From positions 1 to 59,563 of the forward strand of contig NZ_CAMCBS010000014.1 in NCBI RefSeq assembly GCF_945873075.1: a DNA stretch of 59,563 nucleotides. The letters are read 5' to 3'. Below are positions 44,288 to 56,400 of the stretch, one piece after another (position 1 is the first letter of the stretch; each line of letters opens with the position of its first letter). This DNA comes from an uncultured Moraxella sp. Lineage in GTDB: Bacteria > Pseudomonadota > Gammaproteobacteria > Pseudomonadales > Moraxellaceae. Below the pieces are notes generated by a model that saw only the letters and a program-made list of their open reading frames with translations, did not search any database and was not told where the DNA came from. The position numbers and the translations under genes were made by a program.

Positions 44288-44893
44288 ATGCAATACATCA
44301 AGCTAAAAGACTGGGCTATCCAACATGGATACAGCTACATGGGTGCTTATAAAGCATACCGTGCTGGTCGTATTGCAGGTGCTTTTCAACAGGGCGAGCG
44401 GGGTGCTGTGCTTGTCCCAGTTGCGGATAATACTGAAATTCGTGATAGTGGCAATGCCTCACCAACAGTATTCATTTACAGCCGTGTATCCTCCGCAAAA
44501 CAAAAAGCAGATTTAGACCGACAAAAACAACGATTAAACGAGTTTTGTTTTAACAAAGGTCTATCTGTATCTCATAGCTACAGTGAAGTCGCATCAGGTT
44601 TAAACGATAATCGCCGTGAGTTGTTTCGTTTGATAGATAAGGTAAAAAAGCAACCTAATTCTATCTTGGTTATTGAGCATAAAGACAGACTCACCCGCTT
44701 TGGTTACAACTACCTAGAACGCCTATTTACTGAGCTTAACTGTCAAATCATTGTGGTAAATGCCACCCAAACCGATGAGCAAGATTTGGTTGCTGACCTA
44801 TCATCTGTTATCTACTCATTCTGCGCCAAGCTGTATACCAAACGCAAAGCCGCCAACAAAGTTAAACAGGTCATGTCGATTATCTATGAGTGA
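44288..44893 (+). CDS. tnpA: IS607-type serine recombinase TnpA
   Basis: A 201-residue transposase. An N-terminal MerR-like helix-turn-helix (YIKLKDWAIQHGYSYMGAYKAY, GRI) precedes the small serine recombinase domain. The catalytic Ser is probably Ser68 in YSRVSSAKQKADLDRQ, with the conserved Arg region EHKDRLTRFG near residue 138. The order HTH-then-catalytic is the IS607 arrangement. It appears complete. Confidence 0.9.
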   Translation: MQYIKLKDWAIQHGYSYMGAYKAYRAGRIAGAFQQGERGAVLVPVADNTEIRDSGNASPTVFIYSRVSSAKQKADLDRQKQRLNEFCFNKGLSVSHSYSEVASGLNDNRRELFRLIDKVKKQPNSILVIEHKDRLTRFGYNYLERLFTELNCQIIVVNATQTDEQDLVADLSSVIYSFCAKLYTKRKAANKVKQVMSIIYE

Positions 44894-46391
44894 CAATCCA
44901 GTAATTGCCAAAAGACCTAAAGGCGTGCGCAAAGGCTTGTCCAAAAAGGTCGCTAAAAAGCGTCAAAAAGGCGATATTGTTAGAACCGCTCGCCTAAGCT
45001 TTGACCATCTTAATACCGGTAAAAAGCAGTTGATTCAACTACTTTTAAAAGAAAGTAAAAGGATACTAAGTATCCTTATTGAACAAGCTTGGATTGGCTA
45101 TGGCTTAGATAAATGTAATACCAAAGCCAATCACAATACCCCTAAATTCTATGAATTTGACACCAGCGACATTGAGACTTGCCTGTCAGCACGCTTTATC
45201 AAATGCTTATGCACTCAAGCACAGGGCATGATTAATGCTGCAACCGCTAAGAATAAAAAAAGATTATTTGCATTGGGTGAAAAGCAAGCCGAACTTCAAG
45301 AGATACTAAGATCAGATGTGGTTACGGTACGCACAGAACAAGAAGTAAAACACTTAAATAACCTGTGCAAAGCCATTAAAACCATGCAAAGACGCTTTGC
45401 TAAGCTACATACGCAACCATCTGTACCAACCAATATCAAAATTGAGATAAATAGCTTGGTGATTGAGCAAGCATCAGAGAACAACACGCAGTTTGATGTG
45501 CTGATGACGCTAAAATCCTTGTTCAAACGCAGTTATATCAAAGAAAACGGCTTGGATAAAACCAAATTTCACCTACCGTTTAAGCTACACCGTCAATATA
45601 ACAAACTAGCCTCCGACGGCGAAAAATTAAATTCCTATCTGCTTGGTGTACAAGGGCTAGATTGCCGTTTTGTACTACCTAAAGCAGAGGTGACTGGCAA
45701 AGGCATTTTGGCGATTGACCAAGGGGTTAGAAGTCTGTTGACCGCCTCGCAGAGAATTGATGACAAGGTCACAAGCTTTGATGAGCAAGATATTACAGGT
45801 GAATATTATTACAATAAGCTATTACAGCAACTGGCAACAACGCCACAAGGAACGCCTAAATATCGCCGCTTAATCAAACAGCGAGATAATTATGTCAACA
45901 GCGTTTTAAAACACCTAGATTTAACTGATATACAGGAAGTGCGTCTAGAACATTTATTTGATATTAAGCGAAATAAGCGTGGCGTGTTTCGTCATAACAA
46001 TCCTTTTAGAAAAGTGATGTTCTTTGCTTCAAAGGCCATCACTACAAGTCTGCGTAGTCATTGTGAGATGCACGGTGTCCGTCTAGTCTTACAATCGTCA
46101 GCCTATCGCTCACAGCGGTGCTCACAATGCGGATTTGTCCACACCAAGAATCGTTTAGGCAAATCATTTCATTGTCAAAGTTGCGGTTATCGCAATGATG
46201 CTGATGTTAATGCGTCCTTGAACCATTTGGCTAACTTAAAGCCGATTGTCAACGGTGTGTCGAGACAATTTCCAGATGGCTTCATCTGGAATGAGTCGGG
46301 GGTCTTTGCAGTGCCCCCTGCCAATAGAATTAGGCAAACCAAACCAGTAACCAATGACCTAGGTTGGCTTAGGGTAATCGATGGTTATTGA
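44886..46391 (+). CDS. tnpB: TnpB RNA-guided endonuclease (Cas12-like)
   Basis: A 501-residue TnpB. The RuvC aspartate is at about residue 278 (LAIDQGVRSLL), the glutamate near residue 355 (VRLEHLFDIKR), and the last aspartate near residue 440 (NDADVNASLN). Between the last two is the zinc ribbon CSQC...CQSC. All catalytic residues are present, so it may be active. A tail of about 50 residues after the RuvC motif overlaps the hairpins of the presumed guide RNA. The ATG at 44886 overlaps the tnpA stop; the earlier in-frame ATG at 44760 lies inside tnpA and is rejected. Confidence 0.9.
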   Translation: MSDNPVIAKRPKGVRKGLSKKVAKKRQKGDIVRTARLSFDHLNTGKKQLIQLLLKESKRILSILIEQAWIGYGLDKCNTKANHNTPKFYEFDTSDIETCLSARFIKCLCTQAQGMINAATAKNKKRLFALGEKQAELQEILRSDVVTVRTEQEVKHLNNLCKAIKTMQRRFAKLHTQPSVPTNIKIEINSLVIEQASENNTQFDVLMTLKSLFKRSYIKENGLDKTKFHLPFKLHRQYNKLASDGEKLNSYLLGVQGLDCRFVLPKAEVTGKGILAIDQGVRSLLTASQRIDDKVTSFDEQDITGEYYYNKLLQQLATTPQGTPKYRRLIKQRDNYVNSVLKHLDLTDIQEVRLEHLFDIKRNKRGVFRHNNPFRKVMFFASKAITTSLRSHCEMHGVRLVLQSSAYRSQRCSQCGFVHTKNRLGKSFHCQSCGYRNDADVNASLNHLANLKPIVNGVSRQFPDGFIWNESGVFAVPPANRIRQTKPVTNDLGWLRVIDGY

Positions 46392-46400
46392 GTTTGGGAC
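46262..46400 (+). ncRNA. Candidate omega (guide scaffold) RNA at the tnpB 3' end
   Basis: Three consecutive hairpins lie in the last 130 bases of tnpB: TTCCAGATG/CATCTGGAA with a GCTT tetraloop (46270-46291), GGGGG/CCCCC (46298-46318) and CCTA/TTAGG (about 46358-46374). TnpB omega RNAs are made from exactly this region and end at the right end of the element, which then supplies the guide. The structure is seen; the function is inferred. Confidence 0.5.
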
Positions 46401-46455
46401 TGTAGCATATATGATATGATGGTAAAAATGGATTTTATAACACTGCGTGATTGCG

Positions 46456-47574
46456 ATGCCAAGCTTACCAAAATTCCTACAAAAATCCTATCATCAGACA
46501 GCTGACACCAAGCCAAAATCGACTCGCCATCGACTGACAAGTGTGGCGACGCATTGTGCATTTGGGCTGTGGACGGCATGGGGCGGTCTTGTATTGTGGG
46601 TGCATAAGCCCTTTGGCATGGCGACCTATCCTACGATAGCGCTGATGGCATCTGCATATGGGCTAAGTCTGCACCCTAGATATCGTCATGCGAGAGTGGC
46701 ATTGGCGGTGGGGCTTGGTGCAATTAGTGTGTGGCTATTATTATCGACACCGAGCAATGATAGAGCGTGGCAAGATGATGTCGCACGCCAGCTAAGCTAT
46801 GACAAAGCAGGTGATATGATTACCATTCATAATGTGCGTAATTTTGAGTGGGTGAGCGAATTTAATTATCAGCCACGCTGGGAGACTCGTCAGTATGATT
46901 TATCTAAGCTTGCGACACTCGATTTGATTATCTCGATTTGGGATAATGATAATATTGCCCATACGCTATTGTCGTTTGGCTTTGATGATGGGCAGTATCT
47001 GACTTTTTCGGTGGAAATTCGCAAAGAAATCGGCGAATCTTTCTCATCAGTGGGTGGCTTTGTGCGGCAGTACGAGATGACTGTCATCGCCGCTGACGAA
47101 AAAGACATCATCTATACCCGCAGTAATGCCCGTGATGAGCGAGTATATCTGTATCCGCTTCGCTATCCCAAGCAAAAAATCCGTCAGCTGTTTGTGGCAC
47201 TGCTTGAACAAGCAGATGCGCTTAGACTTGAGCCCGAATGGTACAATACGCTGACTGCCAACTGCACCACAGCGTTATTTGAGCTCGTTCGCCAGATTGA
47301 CCCTGTGCCGATGGATTATCGAGTGCTATTGTCGGGGCGACTGCCTGAATATCTGTACGAGCTTGGTGCGATTGATAATCGCTTGCCTTTTGATGAGTGG
47401 CGGCAGCTTGCCTTGATTAATACCAAAGTATCAAGTACGCCTGAGCAGCTGGCGACAACGGCAACTTTGTCATCGGCTGAATTTTCACGACTGATTCGAG
47501 CGGATTTGCCAAATCGTCAGACATTGAGCCGTCAAGCATTGACAAAACAAAAAGCGGACAAGGCGGATAAGTGA
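46456..47574 (+). CDS. DUF4105 (Lnb N-terminal domain-like) membrane protein
   Basis: About 372 residues. Two or three membrane helices occupy residues 20-95. A periplasmic domain follows with DDVARQLSYDKAGDMITIHNVRNFEWVSE, WDNDNIAHTLLSFGF and the conserved NCTTALFELVR (Cys near residue 275). This is the DUF4105 family, whose members include the N-terminal half of the lipoprotein N-acyltransferase Lnb. A cysteine or His/Cys catalytic role is likely but unproven. The C-terminal 40 residues are low in complexity and Lys/Thr-rich. Confidence 0.8.
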   Translation: MPSLPKFLQKSYHQTADTKPKSTRHRLTSVATHCAFGLWTAWGGLVLWVHKPFGMATYPTIALMASAYGLSLHPRYRHARVALAVGLGAISVWLLLSTPSNDRAWQDDVARQLSYDKAGDMITIHNVRNFEWVSEFNYQPRWETRQYDLSKLATLDLIISIWDNDNIAHTLLSFGFDDGQYLTFSVEIRKEIGESFSSVGGFVRQYEMTVIAADEKDIIYTRSNARDERVYLYPLRYPKQKIRQLFVALLEQADALRLEPEWYNTLTANCTTALFELVRQIDPVPMDYRVLLSGRLPEYLYELGAIDNRLPFDEWRQLALINTKVSSTPEQLATTATLSSAEFSRLIRADLPNRQTLSRQALTKQKADKADK

Positions 47575-47669
47575 TATAAAATGCTTAAAAATCATCAATA
47601 TTAAACCGTGTAAAATCAATAAGTTATAAACTATTTTTTGATTTATGACAAATTTGTCAAAAAAAATGC

Positions 47670-47697
47670 TTGCCAAAATTTCAAAACTCTATATAAT
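47670..47697 (+). promoter_or_regulatory. Promoter of tRNA-Leu
   Basis: TTGCCA, 16 bases, TATAAT, about 52 bases before the tRNA. Confidence 0.7.
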
Positions 47698-47748
47698 ACG
47701 CACCATCAAGACGACGCAGTGATGCGAATAACTTGATAATCAAAACTT

Positions 47749-47833
47749 GGGGTCGTGGCGGAATTGGTAGACGCACTGGATTTAGGTTCCAGCGCCGCGA
47801 GGTGTGAGAGTTCGAGTCTCTCCGACCCCACCA
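47749..47833 (+). tRNA. tRNA-Leu (anticodon TAG)
   Basis: An 85-base class II tRNA with CCA encoded. The acceptor GGGGTCG pairs with CGACCCC. The anticodon loop TTTAGGT carries TAG, reading CTA/CTN leucine. The variable arm is CGCCGCGAGGTG, and the T-arm is GAGAGTTCGAGTCTCTC. Confidence 0.95.
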
Positions 47834-47844
47834 AATTCCAAAAG

Positions 47845-47869
47845 AGACTGGCGAAAGCTGGTCTTTTTT
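47845..47869 (+). terminator. Terminator after tRNA-Leu
   Basis: AGACTGGC pairs with GCTGGTCT around a GAAA tetraloop, followed by six T. Confidence 0.85.
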
Positions 47870-48055
47870 ATTGCCAAAATTTTGCCCATATAGCCAATTA
47901 TACCGATAAGACTGATAAGATAAGCGATTTGATTGATCACTTGATATGGGCAAAAAAGCGTTAAATTACAAGGCTTTGGGCAATTTAAGCATTGAGTGCT
48001 AATGATGGGTGATGTATCATGGTGCACTTGTGCTTGAATGGCGTTGATTTTGGAT

Positions 48056-48919
48056 TTAGGGCTTGGCGGAATTTGACGCTGGTATGCCCACCGAACACAG
48101 CGCCGAACCAATCACCAATGCAATACCAAGCCACGACAGCCAAGGCAGGCTATCGCCAAATGCAATCATCGCCATCACAAGTCCAATCACAGGCTCTAAT
48201 GCTAACAAAAATCCTGCGATGACGGCATTGGATTTTGCCAATCCTTTATTCCAAAACACCATTGCCAAATAGCTACACACCACGCCCAGATAGAGCACCG
48301 ATGAGAGTGCTGTTGTGGTGGTGGGTAGTTGCCATTGTTTGGCAAAAATCACGGTCAAAGGCAGACAGCTAATCGCCCCAAACACAATGCTGACCGTCGT
48401 ATAAGCTTGTGATGGCATCTGTGCGATGATGGATTTGCTGACAAACATACAAAGGATAAAGCTAAGACAACCAAGCATCACCAGCAGACATCCCAATAGA
48501 CTGATTTGTCCACTGCCTTTGGCGGCAAAAATCATCATAAAAATCCCCACAAATGCCACAATGCTCAGCACAAAATCCATCATGCGTGCCCGCAGTCCAA
48601 AACAAAAATGTCCCACAAGCACGGATAGCAAAGGATTGAGCCCCAAAATAGCAATCGCACTCGATGCCGAAGTCATCGATAGACCCATAAACTGCAACAC
48701 AAAGCAAACAGGCAATGTCAAAAATGACAATAGCCATACCATCGGCTGTTTGCCCGTTGGGATACGGCGATATGCAGGCAAAAATATAGGCAGGACAATC
48801 AGCGCACCAATCATAAGCCGAATCTGCACCAGTAGCACAGGGTCAAGTTCACTGGTGGCACTTTTGCCAACAATGAATGAGCTTGCCCAGATGATGATAC
48901 AAAGTAGCAGATAAATCAT
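48056..48919 (-). CDS. EamA/DMT-family transporter
   Basis: A 287-residue membrane protein with ten predicted helices in two EamA repeats. The first starts IIWASSFIVGKSA and the second includes GVVCSYLAMVFWNKGLAKSNA and LLALEPVIGLVMA. This is the drug/metabolite transporter superfamily; the substrate cannot be told from sequence. Confidence 0.88.
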   Translation of the reverse strand: MIYLLLCIIIWASSFIVGKSATSELDPVLLVQIRLMIGALIVLPIFLPAYRRIPTGKQPMVWLLSFLTLPVCFVLQFMGLSMTSASSAIAILGLNPLLSVLVGHFCFGLRARMMDFVLSIVAFVGIFMMIFAAKGSGQISLLGCLLVMLGCLSFILCMFVSKSIIAQMPSQAYTTVSIVFGAISCLPLTVIFAKQWQLPTTTTALSSVLYLGVVCSYLAMVFWNKGLAKSNAVIAGFLLALEPVIGLVMAMIAFGDSLPWLSWLGIALVIGSALCSVGIPASNSAKP

Positions 48920-48979
48920 GATAAATGGCTGATAGTGTGGTCAGTTGGTCAGTTGCATATTCCACTCCAAATGATCATC

Positions 48980-49071
48980 CATTCCACTCTTCACGTGACC
49001 ACTTATTCCACTCTTATTTGACCGCCCCATAAAAAACCACCAGCCAAGTCAATTTGCTCAACTGATGGTTT
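48980..49071. repeat. Direct repeat, left copy (92 bp)
   Basis: Nearly identical to 51191-51281 with only four or five differences. It contains two ATTCCACTC units 24 bases apart, with a third just outside at 48959, and a hairpin formed by AAACCACCAG and CTGATGGTTT. The two copies bracket the IS30 remnant, the small RNA and the DUF3800 operon. Confidence 0.9.
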
Positions 49072-49673
49072 GTATCAGTGCAATCTATGGTGATACAGCC
49101 AAAAGCGGTGACCTGCATACCCATCTACGCTGTCAAAAAACCTATCGTAAACGCGGCTACAAAGCCCATGACAGACGTGGGCAAATTACCAATCGTAAAG
49201 ACATTGGTGATAGACCGCACATCATTGAACAACGACAACGATTGGGTGATTATGAAGGAGATACCGTGGTTGGCAAAAGACATCAAGGGGTATTAGTGAC
49301 TTTGGTGGATAGAACCACACGAGAAGTCAAAATAAAAGCACTGCCAAACCGCAAAGCAATACTGGTGGCACACACTTGTATTGATTTACTCAAAGATGAA
49401 CAAGTGCAAAGCATCACCTTTGATAATGGTAAAGAGTTTGCATTGCATGAACATATAGAGCAAGCACTAAACACCCAAGTTTACTTTGCCAGACCGTACC
49501 ACTCATGGGAGAGAGGAACCAATGAAAACACCAATAGACTAATTCGTCAGTTTTTACCCAAGTCGATTAGATTGGACAATCTTGATGAGGAACAAATTAA
49601 GCAAATTGAGTCTAATTTGAACAACAGACCAAGAAAAGTGCTAGGATTTAAAACACCTCTTGAGGTTGTTTGA
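49065..49673 (+). pseudogene. 5'-truncated IS30-family transposase
   Basis: About 200 residues of an IS30 transposase C-terminal part. The DDE residues are present (D in GDYEGDTVVG, D in TFDNGKEF, E in GTNENTNRLIRQFLP), as is the end ESNLNNRPRKVLGFKTPLEVV. The N-terminal helix-turn-helix of about 100-150 residues is missing: homology begins around IYGDTAKSGDL, a few bases after the left direct repeat. It is therefore a remnant, not an active transposase. Confidence 0.85.
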
Positions 49674-49778
49674 AAAATGATTGACCGGTACAGACCCAAT
49701 CTGACAGTTTTTACGCATAAACGTATGCGAAACCAAAACCCCGAATGGCATGTTTTATAAAAGAGTTACACTTTTTCC

Positions 49779-49809
49779 TTGACAATTAAATTTTGTATAG
49801 TAATATAAT
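49779..49809 (+). promoter_or_regulatory. Promoter of a very small RNA
   Basis: A perfect TTGACA is followed by AT-rich TAATAT (16 bases) or TATAAT (19 bases). The sequence before it (49674-49778) contains no gene. Confidence 0.55.
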
Positions 49810-49811
49810 AA

Positions 49812-49878
49812 TTAGCTCATCAACCTATGGCTGAAGGAGTTACGAAACCGTCTTTTTAAGACGGTTTCAGCTTTTTTT
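49812..49878 (+). ncRNA. Candidate ~65-nt small RNA or leader with terminator
   Basis: Downstream of a TTGACA promoter is about 30 bases of sequence (CAACCTATGGCTGAAGGAGT). A perfect 11-bp stem GAAACCGTCTT/AAGACGGTTTC with a TTT loop follows, then AGC and seven T. Only a ten-codon frame (MAEGVTKPSF) fits inside. The terminator stem overlaps the stop codon of the convergent 166-residue gene, so the RNA is antisense to that gene's 3' end by about a dozen bases. Confidence 0.45.
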
Positions 49879-50367
49879 GACGCGCCAGTAATTCTCATAT
49901 CTCTTTTTAAGTTTCCGTCTTTGGTGTTCATATTCTACCAAGAAGGCCGTCCATGGCAACACAAAATCCTTACGAATAGCAACCACCACAAGGTAGCTAA
50001 AATCCATTAAGGCAAGATGGAATCTTTCTTCACCTTTTTTCTTTTCTATCCACCAAGCGATGTCATTGCTCGATTGAGCAGGGTCGAACTTTTCCATGAT
50101 TGGCTTTATCCAGCCAATTCTTTCACAGCGTCTTATGTCAGGTATTCTTTCGGATTCAACTTCACCTTCTGATATCATATGCCAAAAAGTAGCGCTTTTG
50201 TTGTCGCACAAAGGATGTCTTTTTAATTTAACAACATAATTGCCAAACTTAGGCTTCGAATACTCAAAATCCTTTTCAAAAACTTTATACACCACTTCCA
50301 GATATTCATTAGCGGAATAGTCTTGTAACAATATTAAGGGAGGCAACCAACCTGGGTTATCCACCAT
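49867..50367 (-). CDS. 166-residue protein of unknown family, coupled to DUF3800
   Basis: Starts at ATG 50367 (VDNPGWLPPLILLQDY), 11 bases inside the DUF3800 gene; its AAGGAGG ribosome-binding site is encoded by the last DUF3800 codons. Features: an HPLCDNKSATFWHMISEG segment, then ERIPDIRRCERIGWIKPIME, an AWWIEKKKGEERFHLAL strand, YLVVVAIRKDFVLPWTAF and a basic C-terminal helix ending YENYWRVKK. The conserved-looking His, Arg and Thr with alternating strands recall small BECR-fold RNases of the barnase/RelE kind, but this is a pattern impression and not a match. AT-rich compared with the neighbours. Confidence 0.6.
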   Translation of the reverse strand: MVDNPGWLPPLILLQDYSANEYLEVVYKVFEKDFEYSKPKFGNYVVKLKRHPLCDNKSATFWHMISEGEVESERIPDIRRCERIGWIKPIMEKFDPAQSSNDIAWWIEKKKGEERFHLALMDFSYLVVVAIRKDFVLPWTAFLVEYEHQRRKLKKRYENYWRVKKS

Positions 50368-51061
50368 AATAACCTCCTTGCCAATAAAAAATATTGAATT
50401 TTTGTTCACTTGGCAGGGTGCTAGCATGCAGTTGATAACCTGAACGTTCTTTTACTCTATTAATGATAGCTTGTTTAGCCTTATTGCCTTGCAATTTTCG
50501 ATTAAGATAACACAACGAACCAAGCAATAAATCAGCAACTTGCATTTGCTCTACATGATGTGATTCAACAATCTGAACACGCTTGATTTTTTCTTGTTTA
50601 AAATCATACTGACTATTACAAAGAACATCATGCAATTTTCTAACCTTTTCTCCGCTCTGAGTGTCTTTTTTGTCTAAATAAATAAAAGATGTTGCGTTTG
50701 GCTTAATGATATTTTTTAACAATAAAAACATCATTTTATAATACCAGTCATCGTGAATCTGACGATATTTATCGTGATTTATAGATTTTTTATCAATAAT
50801 TACACAACGGAAAGCAAAGTCGTCATCATCAAAGAAATAATCAACAATATCCAAATAAAACTGAGCTTTGGAATTGGATACCTTGCCCCATTTTATTTCA
50901 AAATTTGGATGCAGCCCATGTTTGATTTTTATCTCTCGCAATCTTTTGGCGATCTCTTTGGTTTTATCAACAGGGCAGCTTGTTGCTCCTAAAACCATTA
51001 CACTCATACCATCATTAGGTAGATGGCACGATTCATCACAATAAATATTAAAACTTATCAT
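50357..51061 (-). CDS. DUF3800 protein (RNase H-like fold)
   Basis: A 234-residue protein with DUF3800 hallmarks: the acidic start FNIYCDESCH (Asp9, Glu10), EIKWGKVSN, YLDKKDT near residue 148 and QVADLLLGSLCYLN near residue 190. The family is predicted to have an RNase H-like fold with metal-binding acids, and occurs in phages, mobile elements and defence-like islands; function is not established. It leads a two-gene operon with a nine-bp inverted repeat in its promoter. Confidence 0.88.
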   Translation of the reverse strand: MISFNIYCDESCHLPNDGMSVMVLGATSCPVDKTKEIAKRLREIKIKHGLHPNFEIKWGKVSNSKAQFYLDIVDYFFDDDDFAFRCVIIDKKSINHDKYRQIHDDWYYKMMFLLLKNIIKPNATSFIYLDKKDTQSGEKVRKLHDVLCNSQYDFKQEKIKRVQIVESHHVEQMQVADLLLGSLCYLNRKLQGNKAKQAIINRVKERSGYQLHASTLPSEQKFNIFYWQGGYYGG

Positions 51062-51116
51062 TTGGATTTCCTATTGTTTTTTTTACAATATATAGTATTC
51101 TTACAAAAAAATCTAC

Positions 51117-51145
51117 TAGAAAATCGCTAGATATATGATTTTCTA
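51117..51145. promoter_or_regulatory. Inverted repeat upstream of the DUF3800 operon
   Basis: TAGAAAATC and GATTTTCTA form a perfect nine-bp inverted repeat with an 11-base spacer, 56 bases before the ATG, in an AT-rich promoter region. Likely an operator. Confidence 0.5.
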
Positions 51146-51190
51146 TCAGAAAGCAGATTAGTGCGAATAGTATGCCACATCAGATATGCA

Positions 51191-51281
51191 CATTCCACTC
51201 TTCACGTGACCACTTATTCCACTCTTATTTAACCACCCATAAAAAACCACCAGCCAAGCCAATTTGCTCAACTGATGGTTT
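51191..51281. repeat. Direct repeat, right copy (91 bp), including the tpsB terminator
   Basis: Matches 48980-49071. The ATTCCACTC units are at 51192 and 51216. This copy sits directly downstream of tpsB, where its hairpin works as the terminator. Confidence 0.9.
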
Positions 51282-51282
51282 T
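51242..51282 (-). terminator. Terminator of tpsB
   Basis: On the minus strand AAACCATCAG and CTGGTGGTTT form a stem around a long loop, then six T. It lies 17 bases after the tpsB stop. Confidence 0.65.
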
Positions 51283-51297
51283 GATGTCAACTTGCTT

Positions 51298-53289
51298 TTA
51301 AAAACTCATCCCCAAGCTCACACCACTGACCCAATCTTTGTTGGAAAAACCCGTGGGCTCGCTGATTGCTTTTGAAGTAAAGATGTCATAGTTAAAACTT
51401 AGGTAGGGGTTATTTGTATTTGGTGTGTATTGTCCTTTAATGCCTATGGCAGCACCTGCTAGATGTTGTCCAAGCAATAGCTCATTTTGGCTTTTGTCGT
51501 GGTTAGTGATATAGCCTGCGTCCAGTCCTAGATAGATGGCATGGTTTGATTGGCTGTTTGTTTTGTTTGCCTGCGTATTATTTGTAGTGCTCTGATTATT
51601 TGCTTGTTGTTGATTAAGCCAGTTTGGATAAAAGCTGATATCTTGTCTGATTAGGATACCATTATCCGCAGATAATGAACGCTCCCCATCAAAGCCTCTG
51701 ACGGTGTATCTGCCACCAATAGCCATTTTTAAATCTGGTGTTAGACTGTCTGTAGCGTATTGGGCTTTGAGTGTGGTGCTGTGGATGATGGGCAGTGGTT
51801 TGTTGTTAATGCTTGGGTTGTATTTACTTGTTAGATTGGCGTTTAATTGATAAATGCCAACACGAGCTGAGCCTTCATCAAACAGCTCTTCTGGTGAGGG
51901 TAAGGCATTAAAAGCGGCGGTACCACGCTTATAAGAAATATCGGTGCTTAGGCTATGATTAGCTTGTTTACCAAAAGTGGTCTCATGGCTAATGCCAAAT
52001 AAATACCCTGCGGTTTTACGGGTTTGTACATCAATGATTGTACCATCAATATCACTTTCTTGGGATTTGACATAACCACCAGCATACACATAGCTTTTGC
52101 TATGAGCATCTCTGTGTACCAGATGAGACAGCTTAGCGTTGTATCCACTGGATTTACCGCCATAGATATAATCTTGGGTACTACCTGCTACGGTTTGATG
52201 ATAGGTGTAGCGATTAGCACCTAATTGCAGCACGCTGTTTTTAATCGGCAGTATGAAGCCCGCCCCATAATTCTTAGAGCCTTTGCTCTTATCAGAGGGG
52301 TAATCTTTGTCATCATTGATTTGATTACCCAAATCTCGCCCAAAGCTAAGATAGAATAAATCGTTTAAATTTGCCAAATTATCCACACTAAGTGTCGCCA
52401 CGCCTTGATATTTCCCTGTGGATTTAGAGCCTGAATCATCAATGCTTAGACTGCCACGAATACGGCGGTGTTGGGTATAATCAATTAAAATATCGCTAAT
52501 GCCAATGCCGTTACCAGTAGGTTTATTGTTTTTATTGTTGCCAATTGCTTGTAACTCATCAGACGGTGCAATCTTAAAAGTAGCATCAGCACTTGGCACA
52601 CGTTTAAAATTCTCAAGCGTGGTTTCTAAATCACGGATGTTTAATAGCTTGCCTGGTTGTGTGGTGAGTGCTGTGTCCAAGATAGCAGGCTGAGTGATGG
52701 CAGGATAAGACTGATTGGCTGTGTCTTTGACTGTGTTTTTAACATAGACAGGCACTTTACTATCCGCTGTATTCACCACCACCTGAGCGATTTTACCTGG
52801 GATTAGAGTTAATCTTAGCTCCCCATCCGCCAAATTCTGATTACCTACCATAATACGACTGGTGACATAGCCTTGTTCAATCAAGCGGTTTTGCACACGA
52901 GTGGCAATAGCATTGATGTCAGCAACTGTCATGCACTTGCCTAATACACTGCTGTTGCCCATGATTTCAGGCATGAGTGCAAAGCCAAGCTTGTCTGCAA
53001 AGACAATATCATCTTGGGATAACACTGAATAACCAATCTTATGAATATCAAAGCAAATGGCGTTATCTGCTGTTGGTTGTTCTTGGATTTGGGTGGCGGT
53101 ATCAGCAATACCAACACTAGTATCAATGCCATCCACCACCACACTTGGATTTGGCACCAATTGCTCTAGCAGTGCCTGATTGCGAGAATCTTGAGCTTGG
53201 ATTAGGGTTTGGTTGGTGGTGTTGGCAGAGACGGTGTTATGAACCAAAATTGCAGTAATTGTGGTGGCAAGGATTGTTGGTCTAATCAT
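51298..53289 (-). CDS. Two-partner secretion transporter TpsB (FhaC/ShlB family)
   Basis: A 663-residue outer-membrane protein with a signal peptide ending NTVSA (about residue 22). A long Gln/Asn/Thr-rich linker and two POTRA-like segments (ICFDIHKIGYSVL; VTSRIMVGNQNLADGELRL) lead to a 16-strand barrel. The lid-loop motif VRGF lies at about residue 529, the family signature. Two Asn/Gln/Thr-rich stretches occur in extracellular loops. It exports the TpsA protein encoded divergently 143 bases away. It resembles the MhaC transporter of M. catarrhalis. Confidence 0.92.
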   Translation of the reverse strand: MIRPTILATTITAILVHNTVSANTTNQTLIQAQDSRNQALLEQLVPNPSVVVDGIDTSVGIADTATQIQEQPTADNAICFDIHKIGYSVLSQDDIVFADKLGFALMPEIMGNSSVLGKCMTVADINAIATRVQNRLIEQGYVTSRIMVGNQNLADGELRLTLIPGKIAQVVVNTADSKVPVYVKNTVKDTANQSYPAITQPAILDTALTTQPGKLLNIRDLETTLENFKRVPSADATFKIAPSDELQAIGNNKNNKPTGNGIGISDILIDYTQHRRIRGSLSIDDSGSKSTGKYQGVATLSVDNLANLNDLFYLSFGRDLGNQINDDKDYPSDKSKGSKNYGAGFILPIKNSVLQLGANRYTYHQTVAGSTQDYIYGGKSSGYNAKLSHLVHRDAHSKSYVYAGGYVKSQESDIDGTIIDVQTRKTAGYLFGISHETTFGKQANHSLSTDISYKRGTAAFNALPSPEELFDEGSARVGIYQLNANLTSKYNPSINNKPLPIIHSTTLKAQYATDSLTPDLKMAIGGRYTVRGFDGERSLSADNGILIRQDISFYPNWLNQQQANNQSTTNNTQANKTNSQSNHAIYLGLDAGYITNHDKSQNELLLGQHLAGAAIGIKGQYTPNTNNPYLSFNYDIFTSKAISEPTGFSNKDWVSGVSLGMSF

Positions 53290-53432
53290 AGGTGCATTCC
53301 AGCATCGTATTCAAGAATATTACATATTGTAACTATATAAATACAATCTTGCAAGCTCATCTAAATTACCATTGCTACATTTATACATATTTGTTACAAT
53401 ATTATTGCTATTTATTTTAAAAGGAAATTTTT

Positions 53433-56400
53433 ATGAACCATGTATACAAAACCGTCTTTAACAAATCCACACAGACTTGGATGGCGGTTTGTGAATATGC
53501 TCGTAGTGTTGGTTGTGGCAGTGCAAGTGGTGGCAGCAAATCTGTGACACGAGGCGTAGTTGGTTCTATTACTTTTTTATCCTTTGCAGTACTTATGGCT
53601 TTGCAGTCAGCCCATGCCAACACCCCCACCACCATCATTGCAGATAAATCCGCCGATAAAGCCTTACAGCCGATTGTATTAAATACCGCAAGTGGTGTTG
53701 TGTCTGTTAATATCGCAACCCCCAATGCTCGTGGCTTATCCAATAACCATTACAGCCAGTTTGATGTGGGTAGTACAGGCGCTGTATTAAATAACAACCG
53801 TAAAGCTGTTGATACCCAAATCGCAGGCTTTGTGGCAGCTAACCCCTATATGGCTCGTGGGGAAGCTTCTACCATCTTAAATCAAGTCAATTCCAACAAC
53901 CCAAGTCATTTGAATGGCTTTATTGAAGTGGCAGGTAAAAAGGCGGATGTGATTATCGCAAACCCATCAGGCTTGGTTGTCAATGGTGCTGGGTTTATTA
54001 ATGCTGGCAATGTCCATCTGGCGGCAGCAAATAGCCAAGTTAATCAAGGGCAAGTAACAGGTTATGAAGTTGGCACAGGTCATATTGCTGCTCATGGTAA
54101 ATTAAACCTACAAGGCACCGATTATGCTGCGCTCATTGCCAAGACCGCCCAAATCAATGATGAGATTTATGCAGGCAAACAACTTGATGTTATTCTAGGT
54201 GAAAACAGTGTTAGCCTACAAGATGGCGATTTAACACAACTAACCGCCATCAATAAGCAAACAAGCACGCCATCTGCCAATCAAACCACCAATAAAGAGC
54301 AACAAGGCACCGCCCCAACACTGGCATTAGACATCTCAAATCTTGGCGGAATGTACGCAGGTAAAATCCATCTGATTGGTACAGATAAAGGCTTTGGGGT
54401 GAATAACCAAGGGGTTATCACAGCAACTGGCAAGGGACAACCGCTTGGCACAGGTACACTCACCTTGGACAGCCAAGGCAATCTTGTTAATACCGGTAAA
54501 ATCCTAGCCAAAGATGCTGTCACCATCAACACCCATGATAACACTGCTCAAAACGACGGCACCTTGTTAAGCGAACAAGCTGATATTGCCATTAATACCG
54601 CAAGTCTTAATAACACAGGCATCATTCACAGCACCCAAACCGCCAAGATTGCAGCCAAACAAGCGATTGAAAACCGGGGCAGTGTCTATGGCGGTGTTTT
54701 ACAAGTTCATACGGATAAGCTTAATAACACCGGTCAGCTTATCCAAACTGGCACAGGTAAGCTTGATATCACCACCGATACATTCATCAACACTGATAAA
54801 GCGGTTATCGGTCAAAGTCTGTATGGACAAACCAGTATCCCCGCACCTTCTACCCCAAGTAGTGATCAAAGTGCTGGTAGTATCAGCAATGAGCTGGCAG
54901 ATAATACAGCAGGCAGTACGGGTCATTTGGGGACGGACCCACAGCCGCCTGCTTTAAGTGACTCTGGTGCAAACACTCAAACCAAACCCGTCCCAACTGC
55001 TCGTGGTCATATCACTGCCACGAGCAGTATTCACAACACAGGTAGTCAAGCACTCATCACCGCCACAGGTGATATTGGTATCAGTGCCAATCAAACCAGT
55101 AATACCAAGCAAGCATCGATTGATGTACAAAGCCTAAATACCAACACTCTTGTCAATACTGACAGTAAAATCGCCTTAGATGATATCAATTGGCAATTAA
55201 GCCGCTTTGACAACAGCAAAGGTAGTATCACTGCTAGAAATGGCATGGTGATTGACAGTGGTTCTGATATGATTAATACAGGCGGTCAATTATCTGCCAC
55301 TGGTACTGTGGCGTTATCTGCTGTTGGCGCGCTTGATAATACCCAAGGGGTGATTGTAAGTGGTGGTGATACTGCTATCAGCACTGATGGTGTGAATAAT
55401 CAGGCTGGTACGATCATGAGTACTGGCAATGTATCTATTGCCAGCAAAGATAAGTTAACGAATGATAAAGGCGTCATCTCTGCACAAGCTAATACCACAT
55501 TGAGCGTTGGGACAGCATTGAGCAATCATGATGGCAATATCTTTGGCAATCAACACCTAACCATCTATAGCCAAGATTTGACAAACAGCGGTCAGGTTTA
55601 TGGGGGTAAAAGCACTACCCTGACTACTTCACAGACCCTAAGCAACAGTCAAACAGGACTGATTGCCAGCGGTGGTGATACCACCATCAGCACTCATACC
55701 ATCACTCATGCCGGCAGCATCATTGCTGGCATGGACCGTGAAGGCAAATTAGGGCAGCCTGCCAATCTTAGCATCCAAAGTACGGGCAATCTGGTCAGCA
55801 CAGGCACACACATTGCCACCCAAGCGATGGTGATGACAGGCAACATGCTTGACTTAAGCGATAGTCATAGTGAAGCGGTTAATATCAATCTAAATAGCCA
55901 AACTGATGTCAACACCACCAATGCTACCGCCATTGCTGCTGATACACTACACATCAGCACACCTGGTCAGCTTAATAACACCCAAGGGCAATTGTCCGCC
56001 AAACACCTGATGATTGATGGCAGCAAACTCATCAACCATCAAGGCAATATCAGCCATAGCGGTACGCAGGCACTGACATTAAACTTCAATCAAGGTCTGG
56101 ACAACCGCCAAGGCAATATCAGCAGTAACAGCCAAGTACTGAGCATTAATACAGGTGCCGCCGCTTTAAACAACCAGCAAGGCAGTATTACTCATACAGG
56201 CAGTACGCTGACTGTGAGTACGCAGCATCTAGGCAACCATCAAGGTAAACTACTTAGCACTGGCAATCAAAGTCTTACGGTGGCTACAGATATCAATAAC
56301 TCTGAAGGTGTCATTCAAGCAGATGCTTTAGCAATCAGTGCTCAAAGTATCAATAACCATCAAGGCAAGCTACTTAGCACCGCCAATCAGTCTTTAAGCA

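Follow-up and report, generated by a model that had tools for sequence, protein, structure and literature searches.

Small structured RNAs and genes of the DUF3800 family have been associated from more than one direction. Rfam holds small structured RNA motifs named after DUF3800 genes (e.g. RF03075, DUF3800-VIII), and one report describes DUF3800 proteins as associated with putative RNAs and found together with Cas12 (PMC10910872). PADLOC-DB 2.0.0 defines a candidate defence family, PDC-M04, by two protein components, its models containing no RNA; a literature search for the name PDC-M04 found no paper. In phage P1 the corresponding genes, rlfA and rlfB (RapB in phage P7), follow repL, under the control of a phage repressor site, and the features of the P1 record list no RNA at the place considered here. 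For the RNA antitoxin system ToxIN, phage PhiTE is described as escaping through pseudo-ToxI, phage copies of the RNA that act as mimics (PMC3475682). Here we describe a member of PDC-M04 in a 59,563-nt stretch of DNA from an uncultured Moraxella sp. (NZ_CAMCBS010000014.1, assembly GCF_945873075.1; the whole stretch is termed the window), and report that a small RNA convergent with its second gene is, on comparative sequence grounds, a conserved third component of the module, with stand-alone copies in phages.

The window pair comprises a DUF3800 gene (A) and a partner (B), both on the minus strand and sharing an 11-base overlap, with the ribosome-binding site AAGGAGG in the tail of A immediately 5' of the ATG of B (Table 1). 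A first-pass annotation of the window had described this two-gene operon, the length of the partner, an AT-rich composition and an operator-like repeat, and had likened the whole to defence or toxin-antitoxin modules; we confirmed its observations, and its interpretation is partly supported. G+C content is 0.32-0.37 in the four 500-base bins of 49501-51500, compared with 0.37-0.49 for the remaining 14 bins of 46001-55000, and the operator-like element is present as an inverted repeat. Gene A matches Pfam DUF3800 above its cut-off (E 1e-12; 49.4 bits, cut-off 21). The partner, previously taken to be a protein of no known family, proved otherwise: protein A matches the PADLOC model PDC-M04A (E 1.7e-91) and protein B matches PDC-M04B (E 3.7e-60 with the best among 12 PDC-M04B models), in the same order as the models, and the two are 51% and 34-35% identical to P1 RlfA and RlfB, respectively. 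These matches place the pair, as a new member, in the known candidate family PDC-M04 / P1 RlfAB. The P1 genes have the same order as in the window and the same RNA behind rlfB; the window copy differs in being chromosomal and in having a different upstream region.

A scan of GTDB species genomes with A alone yielded at least 568 relatives, the best 80 of which were examined (the 80 relatives). In all 80, A is followed by B in the same orientation, and the distance between them, with starts chosen by script, is -25 to +14 bases in 78, most commonly -4 (34 relatives); in L095, L097 and L046 gene B was in two pieces and was left as is. The tight coupling read from the window is upheld by this count, and a rarity of the pairing elsewhere, which the first-pass annotation had considered, was not borne out. 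According to record titles the relatives belong to Proteobacteria, Actinobacteria, Chloroflexi, Bacteroidetes, Acidobacteria and Cyanobacteria, as well as to Verrucomicrobia-type, Planctomycetes-type and candidate phyla, many of them metagenome-assembled, and they derive mostly from cellular contigs. A class-level search matched B in 7 of 369 genomes, the Moraxella genome included, and a genus-level search found A in one of 22 genomes, namely that genome itself. Among 63 viral loci, several of which duplicate the same contigs, A was found in 62 and B in 58 of those 62.

Beyond the 3' end of B, on the opposite strand, stands a small promoter-terminator unit that had been noticed at first pass, though not as a conserved third component. 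The terminator stem (49844-49868) has a T run, and the U tail of the predicted RNA overlaps the 3' end of B. In that stretch promoter-like sites number 4 against a shuffled mean of 8.8, and terminator-like sites 2 against 2.1; the unit alone could be due to chance, but it is kept in relatives and therefore is not. Searches with blastn recovered it directly behind B, on the opposite strand, in relatives of many phyla. Among 119 distinct downstream segments, 115 contain a motif like CTCATCTACC, and 108 of these contain one like AGAAGGAG as well. Unguided folding of an alignment of 83 of the 97 non-redundant RNAs, the window sequence among them, returned a hairpin (CUC-UCUAC...GUAGA-GAG) and a terminator hairpin, with changes on both sides at 11 of 13 predicted pairs. 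When a structure of 18 pairs was specified, 92.5% of cells could pair (shuffled, 82.4) and 142 cells were changed on both sides (shuffled, 40.4); none of 500 shuffles reached the observed pairing or covariation, and sliding the partners halved the pairing. The variable parts of the RNA are the hairpin loop and the terminator stem.

A covariance model built from the 83-sequence alignment (R1) matched the window once (62.8 bits, E 1.1e-17). Applied to the loci of the 80 relatives (1.02 Mb) it gave 79 matches, every one convergent with B, at the gene's 3' end, and none elsewhere, 21 of them in loci not used in building R1; the exception, L064, is a contig that ends inside B. The RNA behind rlfB in P1 scored 54.6 bits, and 43 of 53 further loci were matched. 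With only the best candidates scored, exactly one R1 match was found in each of 22 genomes or records, comprising 20 host genomes, the Moraxella genome and P1. A promoter-like sequence (score of at least 9 of 12) precedes the RNA in 54 of 90 cases, where shuffled sequences gave a mean of 4.9 and a maximum of 10. The motif TAnnTTTG, a promoter form of Bacteroidota, stands upstream of 4 of 6 Bacteroidota copies against 5 of 98 others. From these comparisons we regard the RNA as transcribed on its own and as belonging to the module no less constantly than the two proteins do. Unlike the Rfam DUF3800 motifs, the window RNA reaches no Rfam model at gathering score, and Rfam models gave no match at the RNA in the window, in L003-L008, or in L039, L073, L087, L064 and L030. 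In the viral loci scanned with Rfam models, the sole overlap with the RNA itself was a weak L20_leader match in L218 (23.9 bits, cut-off 58.7, E 0.76), which was taken as chance. A distant branch of the pair (L007:1438-1960, L008:1300-1434) lacks the R1 RNA and has, as judged by eye, another common hairpin-plus-terminator at the same place.

The same RNA occurs in viruses without the genes. Viral contigs scanned with the RNA motif gave at least 120 stretches; 80 viral loci were kept, and R1 matched 67. A or B lies near the RNA in four of these (in one case weakly); the remaining 63 have neither, and in 45 of the 63 the expected position of B is covered by 1.5 kb of sequence or more. Two copies of the RNA are present in 11 loci, and in 28 of 28 viral cases checked the RNA lies outside any open reading frame (ORF) of at least 130 aa. 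Several of 43 neighbouring proteins match phage families (terminase, portal, major head protein, exonuclease). The company of these copies includes other small RNAs: in 8 of 23 viral loci scanned (L273, L229, L251, L281, L267, L224, L238 and L289, several being near-identical phages) Rfam DUF3800-VIII comes immediately after it in the same orientation, and an abiF RNA stands 135 bases before the RNA in L230. The RNA is embedded in tRNA clusters in L225, L233 and L283, and L230 also has tRNA clusters. Such stand-alone copies without the pair suggest an RNA-based arms race. Within the set of literature searched, no paper was found that brings together any two of DUF3800, abiF, RNA decoys, anti-defense RNA and phage-encoded RNA. 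The tRNA cluster of L225 that holds a solitary RNA also contains an Rfam drum RNA (L225:5820-5927), and one viral contig (L148 and L250) carries two tandem RNA copies beside an intact-looking pair. Cellular genomes have solitary RNAs in three cases; in one, L198, the neighbouring gene was read as a phage terminase. In L195 a solitary RNA (about 1501-1570), perhaps a remnant, lies behind a 261-aa gene resembling upstream neighbours of the pair (e.g. that of L073).

In A, residues D9, E10, E55, D130 and D177 are invariant in 100 of 100 alignment rows; these acidic residues would suit metal-dependent catalysis, and the protein is probably an RNase H-like nuclease, a fold assignment that we take from PMC10910872. 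In B, H63 and R80 are invariant and R74, R83 and T140 nearly so (94 rows). Its AlphaFold model is of high confidence (predicted local distance difference test, pLDDT, 94.7; predicted template modelling score, pTM, 0.88) and gives whole-domain structural matches, at weak scores, to colicin D, HigB1, YafQ and RelE. The modelled architecture, apparently helices followed by a four-stranded sheet, with conserved His, Arg and Thr, most resembles, at these weak scores, that of BECR RNases, as had been suspected from residue pattern, with additional N-terminal and C-terminal helices as a difference; on this model B is probably an endoribonuclease. Searches of PDB sequences returned nothing convincing, and at sequence level the one BECR match was to PBECR3 (E 0.06), in 1 of 94 members. 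PBECR3 is present in 2 of 143 genomes and a search for its viral relatives gave one locus; a PBECR profile comparison was abandoned because these examples are too few for a profile.

Genes near the pair place it in a setting that recalls defence, as the first-pass annotation had proposed. In 75 of the 80 loci (L028, L039, L059, L069 and L071 were left out, the simple gene caller having lost gene A), clusters of neighbours read as HsdR, HsdS and HsdM occur near the pair in 33, 30 and 27 loci, respectively. In many, an HsdS-like gene stands directly 5' of A with a 4-base overlap; the same hsdS-A-B order was seen in L003, from a genome of the class. With genes farther from the pair serving as a positional control, PADLOC was run on 82 of 124 near genes and on 60 of 170 far genes: it named 19 of the 82 near genes type I specificity subunits, against none of the 60 far genes among the 25 families listed.

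We consider it probable that these parts form a phage-defence module of three components in which the RNA controls nuclease activity, and that the phage copies of the RNA are decoys. The operon would supply a DUF3800 protein and a BECR-like protein, both presumed nucleases, and the convergent gene an RNA of 60-70 nt in which a hairpin with the purine-rich element AAGGAG precedes the terminator hairpin. This RNA would bind one or both proteins, either holding them inactive or joining their complex, much as an RNA antitoxin does; phage infection would then disturb the balance and release the nuclease, and the stand-alone, sometimes tandem phage copies would act as decoys in the way that pseudo-ToxI does for ToxIN. 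The proposed likeness to ToxIN lies in an RNA partner of an endoribonuclease; the proteins are different ones, and the module here always includes a second one, DUF3800. In type III toxin-antitoxin systems, RNA antitoxin repeats precede the toxin gene and share its strand, whereas the RNA here is single and convergent, at the 3' end of B. The element AAGGAG resembles a ribosome-binding site, and GGAG is where T4 RegB, an RNase with a related fold, cleaves; by this analogy we speculate that the element may be a bait or cleavage site. More tentatively, at somewhat under an even chance, M04 may be an RNA-antitoxin or RNA-scaffolded two-nuclease defence whose phage decoys are pooled in small arrays, often inside tRNA clusters, with decoys aimed at further RNA-bound defences (DUF3800-VIII, abiF); if true, decoy arrays would represent a general type of counter-defence based on RNA. 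An RNA-controlled module of the kind favoured would add an RNA to a defence candidate known as two proteins, suggest a function to look for in two P1 genes that bear a replication label for want of a better one, and offer one model for why DUF3800 genes accompany small RNAs; should the phage copies prove to be decoys, the tRNA and small-RNA clusters of phages would list the RNA-based defences that phages meet.

Several observations weigh against this reading. The far genes also hold restriction genes (MTase_I, 2 of 60; REase_I, 1 of 60), and HSDR_N matches (1 to 8) occur somewhere in 16 of 20 host genomes, the enrichment of hsdR near the pair being without a formal control. R1 found no match in 10 of the 53 further loci (L007, L008, L123, L125, L146, L147, L149, L152, L153 and L155), of which L146, L147, L152, L153 and L155 have contigs ending at or soon after the genes and L123 and L125 have a short B. 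Solitary RNAs exist in the cellular genomes G227, G332 and G102, with neither A nor B within about 1.5 kb. Stand-alone viral RNAs have no promoter signal (2 of 32, shuffled mean 1.0) and would therefore need to be produced from longer transcripts. An RNA-guided or RNA-scaffolded effector, in which the RNA is a structural cofactor rather than an inhibitor and phage copies tie the proteins up in dead complexes, would agree with a single RNA per locus having a conserved core and with the association of DUF3800 proteins with putative RNAs and Cas12 (PMC10910872); we hold it unlikely, the RNA having no variable guide-like stretch and its variation falling in the hairpin loop and terminator stem.

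That the RNA merely regulates expression of the operon, as terminator and antisense transcript, or serves a housekeeping purpose shared by phages, seems less likely still. The overlap with the 3' end of B and the terminal hairpin would be expected of such a regulator, but the conserved 5' hairpin lies outside B and is constrained far beyond the needs of a terminator, the phage copies stand away from B, and the RNA occurs once per genome, together with the pair. We give very little credence to a phage lytic replication module, for which the P1 record speaks by placing rlfA and rlfB beside repL with the note 'possibly associated with lytic replication'. The 80 relatives are mostly cellular, many of them having type I restriction genes close by, and in PMC10695390 CRISPR interference knock-down of rlfA and rlfB gave plating values of 1.3 and 0.88, both genes being called non-essential; the undiminished plating speaks against a needed role in replication.

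Table 1. Positions of the gene pair, the RNA and associated features in the window.
Feature	Position	Strand	Remarks
Left copy of tpsB 3'-flank repeat	48954..49071		118 bp; TTCCACTC iterons and terminator
IS30-family transposase remnant	49065..49673	+	5' part missing; NF033563 positions 80-267 of 267, E 1.3e-67
RNA promoter	49779..49809	+	TTGACA 49779-49784; TATAAT 49804-49809; spacer 19
Conserved small RNA	49814..49876	+	hairpin CUC-(U)CUAC/GUAGA-GAG with AAGGAG element, then terminator hairpin
Partner gene B	49867..50367	-	166 aa; PDC-M04B; P1 RlfB homologue; BECR-like predicted fold
DUF3800 gene A	50357..51061	-	234 aa; PDC-M04A; P1 RlfA homologue
Inverted repeat 5' of DUF3800 gene, possible operator	51117..51145		9-bp arms, 11-base centre
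Right copy of tpsB 3'-flank repeat	51187..51281		directly behind window tpsB; includes leading TGCA

The pair and the IS30 remnant are enclosed by two direct repeats, reported at first pass as 91-92 bp long. Positions 48980-49071 and 51191-51281 are 95.7% identical over 92 columns; TGCA starts both copies, and the left copy extends farther than described, the right being one 24-bp unit shorter. The proposal that they are island ends proper to the pair was rejected. Of 22 genus genomes, 10 contain the 118-bp repeat, whole or in part, and since tpsB sequence adjoins it in 10 of 10 fetched regions, it is the 3' flank of two-partner-secretion transporter genes. The window tpsB gene, coding for a ShlB/FhaC-type transporter, lies at 51298-53289, adjoining the pair, and from this comparison its 3' flank is duplicated here on either side of the pair and the IS30 remnant; the pair could be lost if the copies recombined. 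In the search for an empty site, the flanking EamA gene had no relative above 41% identity among the 7 of 22 genus genomes listed. In another genome (L170:4319-6830, G389:C3) the halves of the repeat are split by a different stretch of 2.4 kb with three unknown genes, for whose proteins PADLOC models gave no match, as if the tpsB 3' flank were a recurrent cargo site. Elsewhere in the window, positions 44760-46391 hold a 543-aa ORF that, read by eye, resembles a TnpB/OrfB-type transposon nuclease.
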